Assembly (NCBI RefSeq): GCF_022815645.1
Contig: NZ_JALGRO010000016.1
Location: 1-64,000, forward strand
DNA: 64,000 nt
DNA from: Curtobacterium sp. VKM Ac-2922
GTDB taxonomy: Bacteria > Actinomycetota > Actinomycetes > Actinomycetales > Microbacteriaceae
Direction of reading: 5' to 3'
Shown: positions 10,365 to 29,801 of the stretch, one piece after another
Numbering within the stretch: position 1 is the first letter of the stretch
How the letters are laid out: every line of letters starts with the position of its first letter
Program-made: the position numbers and the translations under genes
Notes under the pieces: model-generated
Seen by the model: the letters and a program-made list of their open reading frames with translations, nothing else
Told to the model about the DNA's origin: nothing
Database searches by the model: none

Positions 10365-12908
10365 TCAGCGCGGGATGACGCTGAACAGGAACTTCTTCCG
10401 GACCATGTACCACGCCAGCAGGATGAGGGCCGAGTGCACGACGAAGCCGATCCAGAAGTCGCCCCAGGGGACTCCCGGGATGGACGCGATGGCCAGCGCG
10501 AAGAACACCTGCCAGACGAACACGTAGAGACTGGCCTGCCCGATCGGGATCCACAGCCAGCCGATGGCGGCGGCGATCGGCTTCCAGAACACCGTCAGGA
10601 TGGCGTACGACACGATCGCGAAGAACGCGATGTCGACCAGGCGCCCCCACTGCAGGTCGACGCGCTGGTAGGCCGTGTTGTACAGGTCGTCGTACATCGA
10701 CGTGGGGAACGGCGTCGGGGTGAATCCCGCGTGGTTCGCCGCCCAGACGTAGACCAGGAACACCGCGTACCCGCCGATCGCGATCCCGATCAGGACCTTG
10801 CCGAGCCGACTGGTCAGCGCCCCGACGACCTGGCGGCGGTAGTACCCGAGCACCAGTCCGTGCGTGAACACCACCTGCCAGGTCAGCAGCGGGAAGACGG
10901 CGTTGAACTGCGAGTTCAGGGGTGCGAAGTCCGGGTTGAGGGCCTGGAACACGTAGAGCGCCCAGCTGACGATCAGCACCGCCCACCAGAAGCCGCGCCG
11001 GATCACCCAGAGCAGCAGCGGGATGAACAGACTCAGCACCACGAACAGGCCCATGATGTTGAACGGCCACGGGCCCATCTCGAGCAGCAGGAACTGCCGG
11101 ATCGCGAACCACGGCGGCGGGTAGGCCAGCAGCTGCATCGCGTTCGGGTACAGGTCGTACACGCGCCCCTCGGCACCCACACCCCCGGTGCCGGTGCCCC
11201 GGTCGGTGAACGTCGTGATCGCGTCGGTGTTCAGGAACGGGATGAAGCTCAGCGCGAAGACCACCGCGATCACCACGAGCGTGACGACGTACTGCTTGCG
11301 CGCACGTTTCAACGCCCCGACGGCGGCGACCCACTCGCCGAACTTCGCGATCGCCAGCGGGTAGGTCATGCCGAGCACCATGCCGGACAGGAACACGAAC
11401 ATCTCCGCGCCCGTGATCGCCCCGACGGCGTGCAACGTCAGGTACGAGTAGGGGCCACCGATCTCGATGTGGGTGATCACCACCGCCAGGATGATGAACC
11501 CGCGGAACAGGTCGAGGCGCAGGTCACGCCCGGCCTTGCCGTCGTCCGGGTACCGCCAGCTCGGCAGCAACCGGCCGAACAGTCCGCTCAGCAGGAACAC
11601 GGCCGCCAGCCCGGCGGCGCACCAGACGATCCACGCCATCTGGTCGCCGCCGGTGTCGAGCTGCTGGTTCGTCGCCGCGGCGCCGTCCTGCGGTGTCACG
11701 CGTTCGGTGACCGGACCGAACACGAACCGGTCGGTGCCCTGCAGGTCGGTGCGGAACGAGCCCGCGATCCCCGGCACCGCGGTGTCGCGCCAGTCGGCGA
11801 CCCGGTTGCCGGCCTCGGGCTCGCGACGGTTCGTCTCGAGGAAGGTGACCCCGCGGACGAGCGGCCGTGACTCGATCGCGCTGAAGACCTGCCGCCACCA
11901 CCCCTGCTTGACGTCGAGTTCGGCGGCGCCCTTGAGCGAGTGGTCGTACAGCGCACCCGTGTCGAGCAGCATCGGCCGGTCGTGCCCCGCGGCGAAGCGC
12001 GTGTAGAAGTCGCCCTGCTGCGGCTGCTGGTACCCCCACGTCTCGGCGAAGCGGGCAGCGACCTCGCCCGACTCGGGGACGTCGTTCGTCGTGAGCGGGA
12101 CGTCGCGTCCAGCGGCCTCGGTCGCCTTGCCCTTGCCGAAGTAGTACATCGACATGCCGACCCAGTCGACCGAGGAGTCGCCGGGCCAGTACGGCTGGTA
12201 GGGGTCGTCGGCCGCGGTGAGCTGGCCGTCGCCGTTCGTGTCGAGCTTGGCGGTGTCGGTGGCGGACAGGTCCTGCAACCGTCCCGCGGACTGGCCGAAC
12301 GGGTAGCCCGCGCCGTACGACGGGGACCAGACCATCAGGGCCTCGGAGGACCCCCGGTGGACCGCGGACGCCAGGGTCCGGAAGGCCTTGACGTACTGCG
12401 TGGGCTGCTGCCCCCAGCGCACCCACGTGCCGTTCATCTGCGGTGCGAACCGCACGAGCACCTGGGTGCGGTACTGCTGGTGTACCTGTTCGAGCAGGTC
12501 GTCGGCATGCCGTGCATCGGCTGCGGTCAGGGAGCGCAGGGCGACGTCGGGCTCGAGGCTGACCACGAGGGTCGCACCCTGCGCGGCGGCGGCCCGGGTC
12601 GCGCGGAGCAGCTGCTTCTGCGCGGCGGTGTCGATCGGGTAGTCGATCTCGACGGCGTAGCTGGACGGGACCGCTCCGAGCCGGCCCGCGTACCCGTCGG
12701 GTGCGTCGGAGCCCCAGTCGAGATCAGGGCCGAACCACGCCTTGTCGGACGCCGGGGCGATGGCGGCCGCTGTGATCGTCCTCGCCGTGGATGTCGTGGA
12801 TGTCCCGGAAGTCGCGGCGGTCGTGGCCTGGGCGGGCAGCGCTCCGCCGAGGGCGAGCGTGCCCGCGACGACCAGCATGGTGAGGATTCTGATGGCTGTG
12901 CGCCTCAC
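10365..12908 (-). CDS. exported GH26-like domain fused to OpgC-type membrane acyltransferase
   Basis: An 847-residue protein. GTG 12908 overlaps the upstream stop (GTGA) and gives a clean signal peptide ending ALPAQA near residue 28. Residues 50-400 resemble GH26 beta-mannanase-like barrels (EPDVALRSL, RFAPQMNGTWVRWG, SVDWVGMSMYYFG), but the usual HEMNG acid/base Glu reads Gln (about residue 156) and the likely nucleophile motif reads LLDTG. It may therefore bind glycan without cleaving it. After a helix at 420-445, residues 455-847 form the multi-helix OpgC domain (DLFRGFIILAVVITHIE), which in proteobacteria succinylates glucans. I infer acyl modification of the polymer made by the co-transcribed glycosyltransferase. 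Confidence 0.85.
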   Translation of the reverse strand: MRRTAIRILTMLVVAGTLALGGALPAQATTAATSGTSTTSTARTITAAAIAPASDKAWFGPDLDWGSDAPDGYAGRLGAVPSSYAVEIDYPIDTAAQKQLLRATRAAAAQGATLVVSLEPDVALRSLTAADARHADDLLEQVHQQYRTQVLVRFAPQMNGTWVRWGQQPTQYVKAFRTLASAVHRGSSEALMVWSPSYGAGYPFGQSAGRLQDLSATDTAKLDTNGDGQLTAADDPYQPYWPGDSSVDWVGMSMYYFGKGKATEAAGRDVPLTTNDVPESGEVAARFAETWGYQQPQQGDFYTRFAAGHDRPMLLDTGALYDHSLKGAAELDVKQGWWRQVFSAIESRPLVRGVTFLETNRREPEAGNRVADWRDTAVPGIAGSFRTDLQGTDRFVFGPVTERVTPQDGAAATNQQLDTGGDQMAWIVWCAAGLAAVFLLSGLFGRLLPSWRYPDDGKAGRDLRLDLFRGFIILAVVITHIEIGGPYSYLTLHAVGAITGAEMFVFLSGMVLGMTYPLAIAKFGEWVAAVGALKRARKQYVVTLVVIAVVFALSFIPFLNTDAITTFTDRGTGTGGVGAEGRVYDLYPNAMQLLAYPPPWFAIRQFLLLEMGPWPFNIMGLFVVLSLFIPLLLWVIRRGFWWAVLIVSWALYVFQALNPDFAPLNSQFNAVFPLLTWQVVFTHGLVLGYYRRQVVGALTSRLGKVLIGIAIGGYAVFLVYVWAANHAGFTPTPFPTSMYDDLYNTAYQRVDLQWGRLVDIAFFAIVSYAILTVFWKPIAAAIGWLWIPIGQASLYVFVWQVFFALAIASIPGVPWGDFWIGFVVHSALILLAWYMVRKKFLFSVIPR

Positions 12909-13306
12909 CGGGTGCACACCAGGGTCCACACGTTGTGACCGCCCTCGTGCCGGTGCTCGAGCCGGTCGAGCGCAGCGATCGCCAGGGCGAGTCCGCGGCC
13001 GCTCTCCGCATCGACGTCGGCCATGGTGACGGCGCTCAGGTCGATGTCGACCGGCAGCCCGTTGTCGCGGAGCACGGCGGTGAGCGCTCGGTCGGTGGCC
13101 TGGAGCTCGACGGTGTACCGCCGGCCGGCCTGGCGATCGGCGCGGGCGGTGTGCTCGACGATGTTCGCGGCGATCTCGGCCACCGCCGTCTCGAGTGCGA
13201 AGCGGTGCGCGGCGTCGTCGATGCCGAGCCCGTCCCACCAGGCGCCGAAGCGGTCCTGCACGGTGTCCAGGCTCTCGGGGACGGCGGGGACGTCGAACGC
13301 GGTCAC
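12905..13306 (-). CDS. RsbW-like HATPase_c protein (anti-sigma/switch kinase family)
   Basis: A small 133-residue GHKL ATPase of the RsbW/SpoIIAB type. The N-box VAEIAANIVEHTAR (about residues 48-61), the DNG of the G1 box (about 92) and ESGRGLALA (about 108-116) are present, so nucleotide binding is likely intact. RsbW-type proteins bind a sigma factor or a STAS antagonist. Here no sigma, STAS or phosphatase gene is adjacent. Instead it sits inside the polysaccharide operon with four-base overlaps (GTGA) on both sides, which implies tight stoichiometry with the glycosyltransferase and acyltransferase. Its partner is unknown. Confidence 0.85.
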   Translation of the reverse strand: MTAFDVPAVPESLDTVQDRFGAWWDGLGIDDAAHRFALETAVAEIAANIVEHTARADRQAGRRYTVELQATDRALTAVLRDNGLPVDIDLSAVTMADVDAESGRGLALAIAALDRLEHRHEGGHNVWTLVCTR

Positions 13307-15324
13307 AGGGGTCCTCCGGAGGTGGTCGACTCGTGCTCGGACTGGACGGTGCCGGGGCCGCGGTACAGGACGGCCCGGATCACGATGCTGAAGATGAACA
13401 GGTCGAACACCACCCAGGCGGTGTTGACCAGCGGTGCGATGCCGGCCGCCTGCCCGCTCAGGTAGCGGATCCCGATCAGCACCAGCGCGCCGACGAGCGC
13501 CCCCATCGCGAACAGCTGCGGTCGGACGAGGTCCCAGCGCGGCTTCGCCTGGGCGTCGTCGCGCACCTTCGGGGTGACCCGGAACCCCAGGGGCTTGCCG
13601 CGGAAGACGTTCTGGAACGCGCTGGTCACGCTCTCGATCCACACCGGGAACAGCGCCAGCGAGTACTGCTGCCCGCGCCAGGTCGGACGGCCCGCGGCCA
13701 CCACCCAGAACAGCAGCTGGTTGAGCACCAGGAACGGGATCAGCCGAGCGAAGAAGTCGACGCTGTAGGCCTGCACCGGCACGACCCCGAACGACAGGCA
13801 CAGCACCGGGGCCGCGATGTAGACGATCGCCGCGAAGCCGGACAGGTAGCTCCACATGGTCGAGAAGTACATGAGCCGCTGCCCGAACGACAGCCCCTTC
13901 TGCACCAGCGGGTTCTCGCGGAAGAACACCTGCATGGTGCCCTGCGCCCAGCGGAGCCGCTGCACCAGCATCGTCGGCAGGTCCTCGGGGGCCAGGCCCT
14001 TCGCCAGGATCTCGTCGTGGTACGCCGACTTCCACCCCAGCCCGTGCAGACGCATCGCGGTGGCCATGTCCTCGGTCACCGAGATCGTCGCCAGGGGCAT
14101 GACCGCCTGTGCTTCGTCGCCGCGGTTGACGTCGACCGCGCGGGCGAGCACAGCGATGGCCTCGATCGCGGCGACCGGTGATGCACCCCGCTGCCCGAGC
14201 ACGTCGAGCGCGGCGTCGTCGAGTCCGGCGAAGGTGTCGGCGTCGGTGGACAGGGCCGCGAGCTCCTGCAGGTCGCTGCGCACGGATTCGAGGTCGGCGG
14301 CGGCGAACCGGAACGCGATCGCGTCGATCCCGCGCTGGAACTCGTAGGTGACGTCGCCGAGCGGCTCGTCACGGCTCATCTGGTCGCGCGCGCGGTCCAC
14401 CACGCCCTGGGCGTCGTCGAGGGCCTCGATCACGCGCTGGTCGGTCTCGAGCTCACGTGCGCGGGACAGGAGCTTGCGCGAGGTGCGCAGGGTGCGTTCG
14501 ACCGAGGCCTCGACTTCGCGCACGTAGCGGGAGATGCCGAGCTGCATCAGGGCCTCGCGCCGCAGGATCGCGTTGGAGCCGCAGAAGAACGCCGCGTTCC
14601 AGCCGTCCTTCGACTGCTGGATCGGGCCGTAGAACAGGGGCGCCTGGCTGCCGAGCAGGTCGGCGTCGGGGACGTTCTCGAACCACTGCGGCGTCTGCAC
14701 GAGCGCCATCCGGGGGTCCTTGAAGTAGCCGAGCGTGCGGTCGAGGATCGCCGGGTCGGGGACCTGGTCGGCGTCGAGGATGAGCAGGAACTCGCCCTGC
14801 GTCGCCATCAGGGCGTTGTTGAGGTTGCCGGCCTTGGCGTGCCGGGGGCGATCGACCCAGTCCTGCCCGCGGGTGATCACACCGAGCCCCAGCTGCTCGG
14901 CCGCCTGACGCATCTCCGGGCGGTTGCCGTCGTCGAGGATCCACGTGCTGTGCGGGTAGCGGATCGCCTTCGCTGCGGTGGCGGTGCGCATCACCAGGTC
15001 GATCGGCTCGTTGTACGTGGTGATGAAGACGTCGACGGTGACCTCGGTCGCCGGGGTGGTCGGTGGTTCACCCCGCTCGCGCAGCCGCCACGCACCGAAC
15101 GCGAACAGCAGCGAGTCGATCACGCTGTAGGTCTCGGCCAGGATGAGCGGCACGGCGATCCACCACGAGTGCCAGTTCACGGATGCAGCCCACCGCCACA
15201 CGACGTAGTTCAGCCCGGCGAGCGATGCCAGCAGCGCCACCGTGCGGACGGCGATGATCCGTCGACGCGCGGTGCCCGTGGCGAGCCGCCTGCGGTCCTG
15301 GCGACTGAGGTCGAGCGCGGTCAT
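13303..15324 (-). CDS. BcsA-like family 2 processive glycosyltransferase with an internal helical insert
   Basis: A 673-residue membrane glycosyltransferase resembling cellulose/hyaluronan-type synthases. Helices at 22-70, then a GT2 core: TTYNEP (102-107), DDG (131-133), DAD metal motif (184-186), CGSNAILRR (248-256), TED (417-419) and QRLRW (455-459), then several C-terminal helices. It should polymerise and export a beta-linked glycan. Unlike classic BcsA there is an insert of about 150 residues between 262 and 412, charged and helical (EVEASVERTLRTSRKLLSRA), and I see no PilZ c-di-GMP domain at the C-terminus. ATG 15324 follows GGGAG. It is first gene of the operon with the RsbW-like and GH26/OpgC proteins. 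Confidence 0.88.
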   Translation of the reverse strand: MTALDLSRQDRRRLATGTARRRIIAVRTVALLASLAGLNYVVWRWAASVNWHSWWIAVPLILAETYSVIDSLLFAFGAWRLRERGEPPTTPATEVTVDVFITTYNEPIDLVMRTATAAKAIRYPHSTWILDDGNRPEMRQAAEQLGLGVITRGQDWVDRPRHAKAGNLNNALMATQGEFLLILDADQVPDPAILDRTLGYFKDPRMALVQTPQWFENVPDADLLGSQAPLFYGPIQQSKDGWNAAFFCGSNAILRREALMQLGISRYVREVEASVERTLRTSRKLLSRARELETDQRVIEALDDAQGVVDRARDQMSRDEPLGDVTYEFQRGIDAIAFRFAAADLESVRSDLQELAALSTDADTFAGLDDAALDVLGQRGASPVAAIEAIAVLARAVDVNRGDEAQAVMPLATISVTEDMATAMRLHGLGWKSAYHDEILAKGLAPEDLPTMLVQRLRWAQGTMQVFFRENPLVQKGLSFGQRLMYFSTMWSYLSGFAAIVYIAAPVLCLSFGVVPVQAYSVDFFARLIPFLVLNQLLFWVVAAGRPTWRGQQYSLALFPVWIESVTSAFQNVFRGKPLGFRVTPKVRDDAQAKPRWDLVRPQLFAMGALVGALVLIGIRYLSGQAAGIAPLVNTAWVVFDLFIFSIVIRAVLYRGPGTVQSEHESTTSGGPL

Positions 15325-26423: not shown

Positions 26424-26446
26424 CCGTCACCCGAACGGGGTGACGG
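26424..26446 (+). promoter_or_regulatory. hairpin in the leader of the phosphatase gene
   Basis: CCGTCACCC, loop GAACG and GGGTGACGG, a perfect 9-bp stem about 30 bp before the GTG start of the phosphatase. It may be an operator or an mRNA leader structure. Role unknown. Confidence 0.45.
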
Positions 26447-26477
26447 CCGGATCGGCGTCTCCGGGGTACGGTGCGGT

Positions 26478-27236
26478 GTGGCCTTTGCACACGAGGTGTT
26501 CGACGACGAGGCCGACGGCCTCGACCTCGACCTCGCCGTTCGCCTGCAGGTCGTGCAGTCGGCGCTGCTGCCGCTGACCGGTGCGGTCCAGGGGTGGTCT
26601 GCCGCGCACGCCTGGCGCGCCGCCGCGGGACTGTCCGGTGACTTCGCCGAGTGGTGCGTCGCCGATGACGGGCGCACCGCGACGGCGACGGTCGGCGACG
26701 TCATGGGCAAGGGGACGCCTGCCGCCCTGCTCGCGACCCACATCGCGGGTGCGCTGGCGACCCAGCGGCACGAGGTCCCCGCGGTCGCGGTCGACGCGGC
26801 GGAGACCGCGGTCCGCGATCGCCTCGAACGCGCCTCGGCCTTCGCGACCCTGTTCCACGGACGGCTGCGGTTCACCGACGGCGCCGTGGACTTCATCGAC
26901 GCAGGACACGGCTTCGCCGCGATCGGACACGCGGCAGGTGACGCCGAGCACATCCGGTCAGCGGACCTGCCCGTCGGCCTGCAACCCCGCGGGTTCCCGC
27001 GCATGCCCCGTCGGGTCGACATCGGTCCCGGTGACGTGCTGCTCATCGCATCGGACGGCATCCTCGAGCTGCCGGGCGCGACCTTCGACACCCTGACCGA
27101 GCTGGCGACCGAGCTCACCCGGGTGCCGACCCTCGACGACGGCCTCGGTGACTTCGTCGGCGCCGTCGGCGGGCGGGTCGACGACGACCTGACGCTGCTC
27201 GCGATCCGTCGGGACGCCGCAGAGGAGCACCGATGA
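26478..27236 (+). CDS. SpoIIE/RsbU-type PP2C serine phosphatase
   Basis: A 252-residue protein that is almost entirely a PPM/SpoIIE phosphatase domain: SGDFAEW (about residue 52), GDVMGKGTPAALLA (about 72-85), DAGHGFA (about 139), ASDGILELPG (about 192) and DDDLTLLAI at the end hold the Asp metal ligands. Such enzymes dephosphorylate STAS anti-anti-sigma proteins in partner switching. There is no attached sensor domain. It shares an ATGA overlap with the BLUF-TetR gene, so sensing is probably by that partner. GTG 26478 is chosen since upstream frame is terminator sequence. No STAS or RsbW gene is adjacent; the RsbW-like gene at 12905 is 13 kb away. Confidence 0.88.
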   Translation: MAFAHEVFDDEADGLDLDLAVRLQVVQSALLPLTGAVQGWSAAHAWRAAAGLSGDFAEWCVADDGRTATATVGDVMGKGTPAALLATHIAGALATQRHEVPAVAVDAAETAVRDRLERASAFATLFHGRLRFTDGAVDFIDAGHGFAAIGHAAGDAEHIRSADLPVGLQPRGFPRMPRRVDIGPGDVLLIASDGILELPGATFDTLTELATELTRVPTLDDGLGDFVGAVGGRVDDDLTLLAIRRDAAEEHR

Positions 27237-28246
27237 CCCTGCGATCGCTCGTCTTCACCTGCGCCCGGACCGGCCGGTTCTCCGTCGACGACCTGGTCGG
27301 GATGCTGCCGACGGCCGCGGCCCGGAACGCCGACCTCGGTGTGACCGGCATCCTGGCGATGCACGACGACAACGTGATGGGTGTGCTCGAGGGACCCGAG
27401 GACGTCGTGCGCGCGCAGTTCGCCGAGGTGGCAGCCGATCCCGCGAACCTCGACGTGCAGGTCCTGTGCGACGACCCGATCGCGGCGAGCACGTTCGCGT
27501 CGTGGTCGCTCGCACTCCGCACCGACGACCCGCGGCTCCTGGCGACCCCCGGCTTCGTGGACCTGTTCGACCCGCGCAGGGCGCAGGACCCCGAGGCAGC
27601 GACGTCGCGGGCGCACGCACTGCTCGAGTGGTTCCGCCGGACGCCCCCGGTCCAGCTGTCGACGCGACGGCTCGTCGCACCGGCCCAGGAGCGCGCGGTG
27701 ACGGCGACGATCGAGCTGCTGCGGGAGATCGGACCGGCGCGGTGCACCCTGGGTGCCGTCGCCACCCGGGCGGGGCTCCCGCCGGAACAGCTCGCTGCGC
27801 TGTTCCCCACCGTGCACCACCTGCTCGCCGCGGCGCTCGGCACCTGGTTGGGATCGGTGTCGGCTCCGCTCGCGCACGTCGCCACCGAACAGGGCACGAT
27901 CCCCTGGCTCCGCGCCATGGTGGTCGCCCTGTCCAGCGAGCCGGCACTCGACCGGTTGATCGTCTTCGCGCTGGCGACCGCCGCCGACGCCGGTGACACG
28001 GCAGCCGAGCCGTTCCTGGCGACGTACCGCGCCTTCCGCGCCGGCATCCGGCAGGCGCTCGAAGCGGACATCGCCGCAGGACGCGAGCCGGCTTCGACCG
28101 ACCCGGTGCGGGGCGCGCGGCAGCTGCTGGCGTTGTTCGACGGGCTCCGGATCCAGAACCTGTTCGATCCGGAACCCGACGTCGCCGACGCGTTCCACCG
28201 CGCCGCCGAGCAGCTGCGCACCGGCTGGTCACACGACCAGCACTGA
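27233..28246 (+). CDS. BLUF-like domain fused to a TetR-like domain, photoactive residues lost
   Basis: A 337-residue protein. Residues 1-95 align without gaps to BLUF blue-light sensors: GVTGIL at 36-41, VLEG at 51-54, the flavin-contacting Asn at 32 and Trp at 91 in WSL. However the tyrosine at position 8 is Phe, the essential glutamine at 50 is Gly (VMGVLEG) and the Met two after Trp is Leu. These changes should abolish the normal photocycle. Residues 155-200 look like a TetR helix-turn-helix (CTLGAVATRAGLPPEQLAALF), followed by an all-helical TetR-like C-terminus. Translationally coupled to the phosphatase. It may sense flavin or another ligand. Confidence 0.82.
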   Translation: MTLRSLVFTCARTGRFSVDDLVGMLPTAAARNADLGVTGILAMHDDNVMGVLEGPEDVVRAQFAEVAADPANLDVQVLCDDPIAASTFASWSLALRTDDPRLLATPGFVDLFDPRRAQDPEAATSRAHALLEWFRRTPPVQLSTRRLVAPAQERAVTATIELLREIGPARCTLGAVATRAGLPPEQLAALFPTVHHLLAAALGTWLGSVSAPLAHVATEQGTIPWLRAMVVALSSEPALDRLIVFALATAADAGDTAAEPFLATYRAFRAGIRQALEADIAAGREPASTDPVRGARQLLALFDGLRIQNLFDPEPDVADAFHRAAEQLRTGWSHDQH

Positions 28247-29222: not shown

Positions 29223-29801
29223 ATGGCACGCTGGGAACCCGGAGCTCGCGAACGGATGGTGCTGGCTGCCGTCGACCTGTTCTCGGACCAGGGCTACGAC
29301 GAGACGACCGTCACCCAGATCGCCGAGCGTGCCGGGGTGACCAAGAGCACGTTCTTCCGGCACTTCCCCGACAAGCGCGAACTCCTGGTCGCCGGGCAGG
29401 AGACCCTGAGCCGGCTGCTGGCGGACGGCATCACCGAGGCACCGGACGGCAGCACGCCGCTGGCCGCGGTCGCCGCGGGGCTGGAACGCGCGTCGGCCGA
29501 GATGGGCCCGACGAACCGCGAGCTCGGACCGCGCCTGCGGGTCGCCGTCGCGGCGAGCGCCGAGCTGCAGGAACGGGATGCGCTGAAGTCCGTCGGCATG
29601 GCGGCCGCGATGACCGACGCACTCGTCGCCCGCGGCATAGCCGAGGTGCCGGCGCGGCTGGCGGCCGAGATGGGCGTGCTCGCGTTCAAGCAGGGGTTCG
29701 AGCGGTGGTCGGGCACCCCGTCCGGCGCCGACGACGACCTCGCGCAGCACGCACTGGCAGCGCTGACCGAACTCCGTGCGGCCGCGGCCGGGCTGGGCTG
29801 A
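29223..29801 (+). CDS. TetR-family transcriptional regulator
   Basis: A 192-residue TetR protein: helix-turn-helix at residues 10-55 (RERMVLAAVDLFSDQGYDE, then TVTQIAERAGVTKSTFFRHF). ATG 29223 is supported by the TATGAT box seven bases before it. It probably represses itself and the divergent SDR gene through the GGGACA-type operator. The GTG of the next gene lies four bases after its stop, so the membrane phosphatase-like gene is co-transcribed, though a functional link is not evident. Confidence 0.92.
   Translation: MARWEPGARERMVLAAVDLFSDQGYDETTVTQIAERAGVTKSTFFRHFPDKRELLVAGQETLSRLLADGITEAPDGSTPLAAVAAGLERASAEMGPTNRELGPRLRVAVAASAELQERDALKSVGMAAAMTDALVARGIAEVPARLAAEMGVLAFKQGFERWSGTPSGADDDLAQHALAALTELRAAAAGLG

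Follow-up and report, generated by a model that had tools for sequence, protein, structure and literature searches.

In Curtobacterium sp. VKM Ac-2922 a stretch of 64,000 nucleotides (positions 1 to 64,000 of contig NZ_JALGRO010000016.1, hereafter the window) carries two overlapping genes on its forward strand. The upstream gene codes for a phosphatase of the PP2C/SpoIIE type, akin to RsbU; the downstream one codes for a fusion of a domain derived from BLUF photoreceptors with a TetR-like part. The BLUF-derived domain has neither the tyrosine nor the glutamine of the BLUF photoswitch, and we describe here the family to which it belongs, its association with the phosphatase and what the pair may do. 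Genes were called with a simple in-house caller, and the intergenic gaps given below depend on those calls. The features of the locus, in window coordinates, are as follows.

26467-26472, forward strand: -10-like hexamer TACGGT (TANNNT); 5 bases separate it from the GTG of the phosphatase gene
26478-27236, forward strand: PP2C/SpoIIE-type (RsbU-like) phosphatase gene, GTG start, 252 amino acids (PF07228, E value 2.4e-24)
27233-27236, forward strand: ATGA, stop of the phosphatase gene and start of the fusion gene, a 4-bp overlap, the same in 7/7 loci of the clade described below
27233-28246, forward strand: BLUF-TetR fusion gene, ATG start, 337 amino acids (Pfam, alignment and structure model)
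27233-27517, forward strand: BLUF-derived domain, residues 1-95 (PF04940, E value 6.2e-15; fold in the model)
27254-27256, forward strand: Phe8 codon (Tyr in 58/58 intact BLUFs compared)
27380-27382, forward strand: Gly50 codon (Gln in 58/58 intact BLUFs compared)
27518-27682, forward strand: linker and BLUF C-terminal helices, residues 96-150 (model helices 100-103, 120-123, 126-136, 139-142)
27683-27826, forward strand: degenerate TetR helix-turn-helix (HTH) region, residues 151-198 (model helices 151-166, 173-180, 184-190)
27827-28228, forward strand: TetR C-terminal (dimer/ligand) domain, residues 199-332 (TetR_C_6, E value 2.3e-6; FadR-like fold)

A BLUF-derived domain without the switch residues

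The preliminary description of this locus, made from the letters alone, had placed a BLUF domain at the N-terminus of the fusion, and both profile and fold agree. Pfam matches residues 5-93 to PF04940 with 55.5 bits against a cut-off of 25, and the sequence matches in the PDB are the BLUF proteins BlrB (E value 9.1e-8), BlrP1 (2.9e-7), Tll0078 and AppA; an NCBIfam scan gave matches only below the cut-offs. A second predicted structure, built on an alignment of 42 sequences, superseded a first model (16 sequences) that was weak in the BLUF part. Its mean predicted local distance difference test score (pLDDT) is 91.0, residues 146-148 being the only segment below 50; its predicted template modelling score is 0.58, so that the relative arrangement of the domains is not fixed by the model. 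With this structure Foldseek retrieves the BLUF domain of AppA (1yrx, E value 2.6e-7, TM score 0.75 by target length). The preliminary description had named a missing BLUF fold as grounds for refutation, and the model does not give this outcome. The VIA-align list was full of TetR chains, and hence uninformative on the BLUF part.

Aligned to its relatives, the window protein has Phe at residue 8, Asn at 32, Gly at 50 and Trp at 91, just as had been read from the letters. Asp69 is retained beside Asn32 and Trp91. Further changes, which the preliminary description had not mentioned, are Val48, Ala71, Asn72 and Leu93, and position 10 is altered too. The comparison rests on 58 distinct unfused BLUFs of the same genus, family and class, every one of which has Tyr8, Asn32, Gln50, Trp91 and Met93. 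These are the best-scoring loci returned, together with 21 BLUFs from 19 hand-chosen Curtobacterium loci, repeats being merged; as most of them were best-scoring, altered ones could have been missed.

Solved structures of Y8F mutants of PixD proteins exist, by their titles among the Foldseek matches, so that Phe8 alone would not break the BLUF fold. We take positions 8, 50, 71 and 72 of the window protein to be Tyr21, Gln63, Arg84 and His85 of AppA (offset 13). According to a simulation study, the main residues interacting with the flavin are Tyr21, Gln63 and Asn45, and the route of the light signal includes His85, Arg84 and Asp82 (PMC10278134). Judged by this alignment, the window clade is a line that has lost both switch residues and two of the three AppA-type route residues. 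That it binds flavin is doubtful, because the positions matching Arg84 and His85 are changed as well. The preliminary description had drawn from the loss of Tyr and Gln a sensing of flavin, or of another ligand, independent of light: the losses stand, and the flavin has become doubtful in this clade, where positions 8, 10, 48, 50, 71 and 72 are all altered. Since the two defining residues that we looked for, Tyr8 and Gln50, are both absent, the window protein is better termed a BLUF derivative than a BLUF photoreceptor.

A family of fusions devoid of the glutamine

A search of 66 Curtobacterium genomes brought the number of BLUF-TetR genes, the window gene included, to 63, spread over 45 of these genomes (counted over the listed rows). 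The window gene's own genome has a second copy, of the Tyr8/Cys48/Gly50 class, 20 kb past the end of the window, at 83,921-84,973 of contig C8. The family is patchy, multi-copy and partly plasmid-borne. There is no stop within the 63 matches, among which L100 is truncated by the end of its contig and L104 is matched only to residue 231. Gly50 and Asn32 are present in all 63. Orthologues with Tyr and Gln both intact, a search for which the preliminary description had proposed, did not appear: the seven members of the window clade all have Phe8, no fusion has Gln50, and it is the unfused BLUFs that keep both residues.

Position 8 divides the family. Tyr is kept by 53 fusions, which make the main class, and there Tyr8, Ser10, Asn32, Asp69, Arg71, His72, Trp91 and Met93 are all retained (53/53). 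Strand 3 of this class reads Asn47-Cys48-x-Gly50, again in 53/53 (as in L065, 5922-6974); at the same strand the intact BLUFs have Phe48 (57/58) and Gln50 (58/58). Phe is found in the ten others, that is, the window clade (seven) and L101-L103. The window class combines Phe8 with Thr, Ala, Cys or Val instead of Ser10, with Val48 and Gly50, with Ala or Gly at 71 and with Asn72. Changes go further in L101-L103, a third, small clade, and in one of its members they extend even to Trp91.

Convergent fusions were considered and can be set aside: in a tree of the BLUF part (28 of the 63 fusions with 35 unfused proteins) the fusions form a single group (support 99/93), and beside this group stands L232, a short BLUF in which both Tyr and Gln are present (97/91). 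Short BLUF photoreceptors are the nearest kin of the fused domain. A full-length tree, midpoint-rooted, separates the two Phe8 clades. The simplest history would have a single loss of Gln, together with the fusion or close to it, and later losses of Tyr, apparently on two occasions (one loss of Tyr followed by a regain also fits). Nor is the window gene a lone decayed one, because Gly50 is present in 63/63 and the BLUF part evolves, as codon comparisons indicate, under purifying selection. The ratio of nonsynonymous to synonymous substitution rates (dN/dS), over 14 pairs, is 0.05-0.41 for the BLUF part and 0.03-0.40 for the TetR C-terminal domain.

Outside the genus, no full-length fusion was present among the matches listed for 398 genomes of the family and 394 of the class (scores being computed for up to 5 candidates in each genome). 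Restriction to Curtobacterium is ruled out all the same by an intact copy on a Frigoribacterium plasmid, the frame of which (L234, 5001-6059) codes for a protein 67% identical to that of L076. The gene annotated there begins within the fusion frame, with most of the BLUF part left out. Plasmid copies also occur on six plasmids of C. flaccumfaciens, a crop pathogen, and on one other Curtobacterium plasmid, and tables derived from RefSeq name such fusions 'BLUF domain-containing protein'. In genome G044 (L233) an intact short BLUF, a gene that by eye looks like one for a sigma factor and an unfused TetR-like relative stand within 2 kb (279-704, 928-1509 and 1563-2240), a gene set which could possibly picture the parts before fusion.

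The TetR-like part and its helix-turn-helix

The second domain had been called TetR-like, and this holds. Pfam TetR_C_6 matches residues 225-321 (E value 2.3e-6, 28.2 bits with a cut-off of 27), residues 156-316 match the TetR-type regulator 2gfn in the PDB (9e-4), and residues 144-335 of the model take up the TetR fold (FadR, Z 18.2, root-mean-square deviation 3.1 over 179 residues). The preliminary description went further, and spoke of a DNA-binding BLUF derivative. The BLUF derivative remains; the binding of DNA is doubtful, given a degenerate recognition helix and an HTH less conserved than any other part of the protein. In the window protein no match to Pfam TetR_N is listed with an E value of 10 or less (filters remove most matches above about 0.1). 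The recognition helix, GLPPEQLAALFPTVHHLL, is without the aromatic residue and the lysine that are usual there, as in the ordinary TetR encoded at 29256-29801. Residue 188, in the place of the aromatic, is aromatic in none of the 63 fusions, and residue 194, in the place of the lysine, is Lys in none, Glu being found in 25. The net charge of the helix has a mean of -1.37 and is positive in 4/63 fusions, compared with +1, and 4/8 positive, in ordinary TetRs, a control made of 8 proteins only, several of them orthologues.

Mean pairwise identity within the family, over 61 of the 63 rows (L100, which runs off its contig, and L104 being left out), is 0.516 for the HTH, 0.601 for the linker, 0.678 for the TetR C-terminal domain and 0.684 for the BLUF part. 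In the ordinary TetR nearby the recognition helix is identical in 5/5 orthologues. The dN/dS of the HTH reaches 0.81, and in 7 of the 14 pairs it exceeds that of the three other parts. The odd recognition helix is also present in unfused TetR-like relatives.

The phosphatase and its link to the fusion

The window phosphatase is bare: neither a sensor domain nor a response-regulator domain was found in it. The acidic motifs [ST]GD, GDVMGKG, [ST]DG and DD[LT]T, presumably the catalytic, metal-binding ones of PP2C, are present in 11/11 aligned phosphatases. The pairing with the fusion, and the overlap of four bases, had been noted at the outset in the window; they extend to the relatives. All seven loci of the window clade share the overlap, and the pair occurs there in at least three genomic settings (the window; L066; L067-L071). 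Across the 66 genomes, a BLUF-TetR gene adjoins the window phosphatase and each of the 10 phosphatases closest to it (50-66% identity), with an overlap in 7 cases and in divergent orientation in 4. In a separate clade of fusions a related phosphatase is divergent in 4/7, at a distance of some 370-400 bp, one of these pairs being on a named plasmid. Two members of the main class have a different SpoIIE-type phosphatase as neighbour, one that appears, by eye, to be membrane-bound: in L072 it lies some 65 bp upstream (SpoIIE, 7.8e-28), and in L110b it lies at least about 0.7 kb downstream, on the basis of a tblastn match (1.7e-19).

By contrast with the 11, none of the 19 more distant phosphatases whose loci were read (at most 47% identity) adjoins a BLUF-TetR gene, and 18 of them are 371-401 amino acids long. 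We had considered that a bare phosphatase might signify a BLUF-TetR partner; the rule holds for the 11 at 50% identity or more, and is broken by the bare L213 (256 amino acids, 41%). Distances between fusions and distances between phosphatases are correlated (Mantel r 0.987, p 0.0001, 11 pairs; r 0.96, exact p 0.0008, for the 7). As these comparisons of sequences go, the linkage of phosphatase and fusion is real, and the two co-diverge.

The start of a TANNNT hexamer lies 11-13 bases 5' of the phosphatase GTG in six of the seven orthologous loci and 18 bases in L070, where an in-frame GTG sits 6 bases ahead. This spacing points to a leaderless mRNA covering both genes, a match to a consensus not being proof. 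Just 5' of the phosphatase gene, at 26424-26446, there is a perfect 9-bp inverted repeat, CCGTCACCC-5-GGGTGACGG, which was not found 5' of the other six phosphatase genes of the clade. An operator conserved before the pair was also considered and rejected, as no perfect inverted repeat is common to the seven upstream regions, which is weak evidence only.

Some neighbouring genes may be recorded here. In L067, L068 and L071, genes that by eye are sigma-factor-like and anti-sigma-like are upstream of the phosphatase, and a sigma-factor-like gene is annotated beside the phosphatase at L235 (3099-3659). In L142 an unfused TetR-like relative (423-1061) is convergent with what appears by eye to be the last part of a gene for a SpoIIE phosphatase (1247-1453); coordinates suggest the same arrangement in G056.

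Partner-switching genes in the genome

Four SpoIIE matches in the genome exceed the cut-off, the window phosphatase being one of them. Free-standing STAS genes of RsbV type are represented by a single one, which contains DSSGLG, lies at about 58.6-58.9 kb of contig C5 and overlaps the gene for an RsbW-like HATPase (L250, 3684-4435, reverse strand); there is no SpoIIE match on the contig of this pair, and no phosphatase in the 8 kb fetched around it. The second STAS match of the genome falls in a frame of 630 amino acids. A second RsbW-like HATPase gene is found in the window itself, at 12905-13306, 13 kb from the phosphatase and the fusion (PF13581, 4.6e-13). It overlaps by 4 bp a gene for a cellulose-synthase-like glycosyltransferase, an unusual pair that spans 12905-15324 on the reverse strand.

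What the pair may do

Our best explanation, held tentatively and falling somewhat short of probable, is that the two genes make an inherited unit in which a light-independent BLUF-TetR sensor, or adaptor, sets the activity of the co-translated phosphatase on an RsbV-like protein. The window protein would no longer work through the BLUF photocycle. Its BLUF-derived and TetR C-terminal domains, both of them conserved, would together make a dimeric sensor or adaptor, which would bind the phosphatase made alongside it and set the activity of that enzyme, the signal being a small molecule, lodged in the TetR-type pocket or in the altered BLUF pocket, and not light. The substrate of the phosphatase would be the RsbV-like member of the only RsbV/RsbW-like pair in the genome, and its dephosphorylation would release a sigma factor. 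Binding of DNA through the degenerate HTH would be a minor activity, or a lost one.

A number of observations weigh against this explanation. What can be seen is the anatomy of the pair, the loss of residues, the selection on them and their linkage; physical contact, the target of the phosphatase and the ligand are what we infer. Neither a STAS gene nor an RsbW-like kinase gene stands beside the phosphatase and the fusion, and STAS genes are absent from their vicinity. For 50 of the 63 fusions, we found no phosphatase gene in the flanks retrieved (about 6 kb at most, the contig ending sooner in some), and this implies that the fusion can function on its own. Shared descent, or the species tree, could by itself account for the correlation between the distances of the paired proteins. 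As for the HTH, it still folds as helices in the model; its dN/dS is the lowest of the four parts in one of the 14 pairs; the charge control is as small as said above; TetR_N is detected in 11 of 16 scanned fusions (E values up to 1); and Arg is present at residue 188 in 22/63 fusions and at 194 in 18/63.

The last two points speak for a transcriptional regulator of the one-component type: its TetR part would bind DNA in an altered way and control its own operon or other genes, with the BLUF-derived domain as a dimerization or ligand module and the phosphatase merely a member of the same operon. We find this unlikely, though it has to be reckoned with. The TetR fold is clear (Z 18.2), divergent orientation across some 370-400 bp, which is frequent among autoregulators, is seen in four of the 13 phosphatase neighbours, and the inverted repeat of 26424-26446 stands before the phosphatase gene. 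However, that repeat was not found before the other six phosphatase genes, the window protein itself has no TetR_N listed, the recognition helix of the family is on average negative, and the HTH is its least conserved part where the ordinary TetR next door keeps its helix unchanged.

Could the domain still sense light, or redox state, through a chemistry other than that of Tyr and Gln, be it photoreduction of the flavin or, in the Cys48 relatives, reactions of the thiol? Asn32, Asp69 and Trp91 are retained, the 53 members of the main class keep all the eight residues given above in addition to Cys48, and natural LOV receptors deficient in Gln are reported as likely bona fide photoreceptors (PMC9098866). 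The window clade is nonetheless without Tyr8, Phe48, Gln50, Arg71 and His72, and without Cys48 too, and in BlsA, Y7, Q51 and W92 are reported to be essential for light-regulated motility and for solubility (PMC6695109). We regard such sensing as quite improbable. A bolder proposal, which we would call a long shot, is that the family is a new class of flavin sensors, the Tyr-Gln switch having been replaced by the Asn-Cys-x-Gly strand: Cys48, which strand alternation puts on the same face as the former Gln, would perform thiol-flavin photochemistry or redox sensing as the LOV cysteine does, on a BLUF scaffold, and the window clade would be a later, flavin-free form that hands this role to the co-translated phosphatase. 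There is, finally, decay: the BLUF-derived domain as a remnant, and the pairing as two neighbours hitch-hiking on a mobile stretch. A patchy family (45/66 genomes), in several copies, partly on plasmids, is what this would produce, and L101-L103, altered up to Trp91 in one member, look like it. We judge it very unlikely even so, as dN/dS in the BLUF part is low, there are no stops in the 63 matches, and the pairing is maintained in at least three settings and in two orientations.

Relation to known systems

With the short BLUF photoreceptors (PixD/Slr1694, BlrB, BlsA, the N-domain of AppA; PF04940) the window protein shares profile, fold, Asn32, Asp69 and Trp91; it differs from them by Phe8, Gly50, Leu93, Val48, Ala71, Asn72 and the fusion to a TetR-like part. 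There is a likeness in layout to BluF (YcgF) of Escherichia coli, in which a BLUF domain is fused to a degenerate EAL domain that acts by protein contact, antagonizing the repressor BluR (PMC3509220). There, too, a BLUF domain goes with a degenerate effector domain. The window fusion, by contrast, has a TetR-like domain in place of EAL and a phosphatase in place of a MerR-like repressor as its neighbour, and has lost the photoswitch residues. The phosphatase resembles the RsbU/SpoIIE-type PP2C enzymes of partner switching in its SpoIIE domain and acidic motifs, and departs from them in being bare, in overlapping a BLUF-TetR gene and in having no STAS or anti-sigma kinase gene adjoining. The TetR-like part, finally, is like the regulators of the FadR/KstR/QacR type in the fold of residues 144-335 and in TetR_C_6, unlike them in its degenerate recognition helix and in the BLUF-derived domain at its N-terminus.

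A survey of 2014 gives 64% of BLUF proteins as short and EAL in 34%, with a BLUF signature that demands both Tyr and Gln (PMC4844311). Run here, this signature matches all 58 of the intact BLUFs but none of the 63 fusions in the BLUF part, its single match in a fusion (L098) falling in the TetR part; a survey built on it would therefore miss the family. Our literature search, outside which most subscription papers remained, found no paper on BLUF-TetR proteins or on natural BLUFs without Gln.

Gln is described as central to the response of BLUF to light (PMC4780082, PMC9853863). A parallel is that of the natural LOV receptors lacking Gln, also a flavin-photosensor fold deprived of its key glutamine, of another fold and another chemistry, and reported still to signal (PMC9098866), which makes a BLUF counterpart a sharp test case. 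The fusions offer a natural series for this, with Gly50 throughout the 63 and Tyr kept in 53 and lost in two clades, from which it may be learned what a BLUF domain does without Gln; and the link with a PP2C phosphatase gives BLUF-TetR proteins a partner that can be tested.

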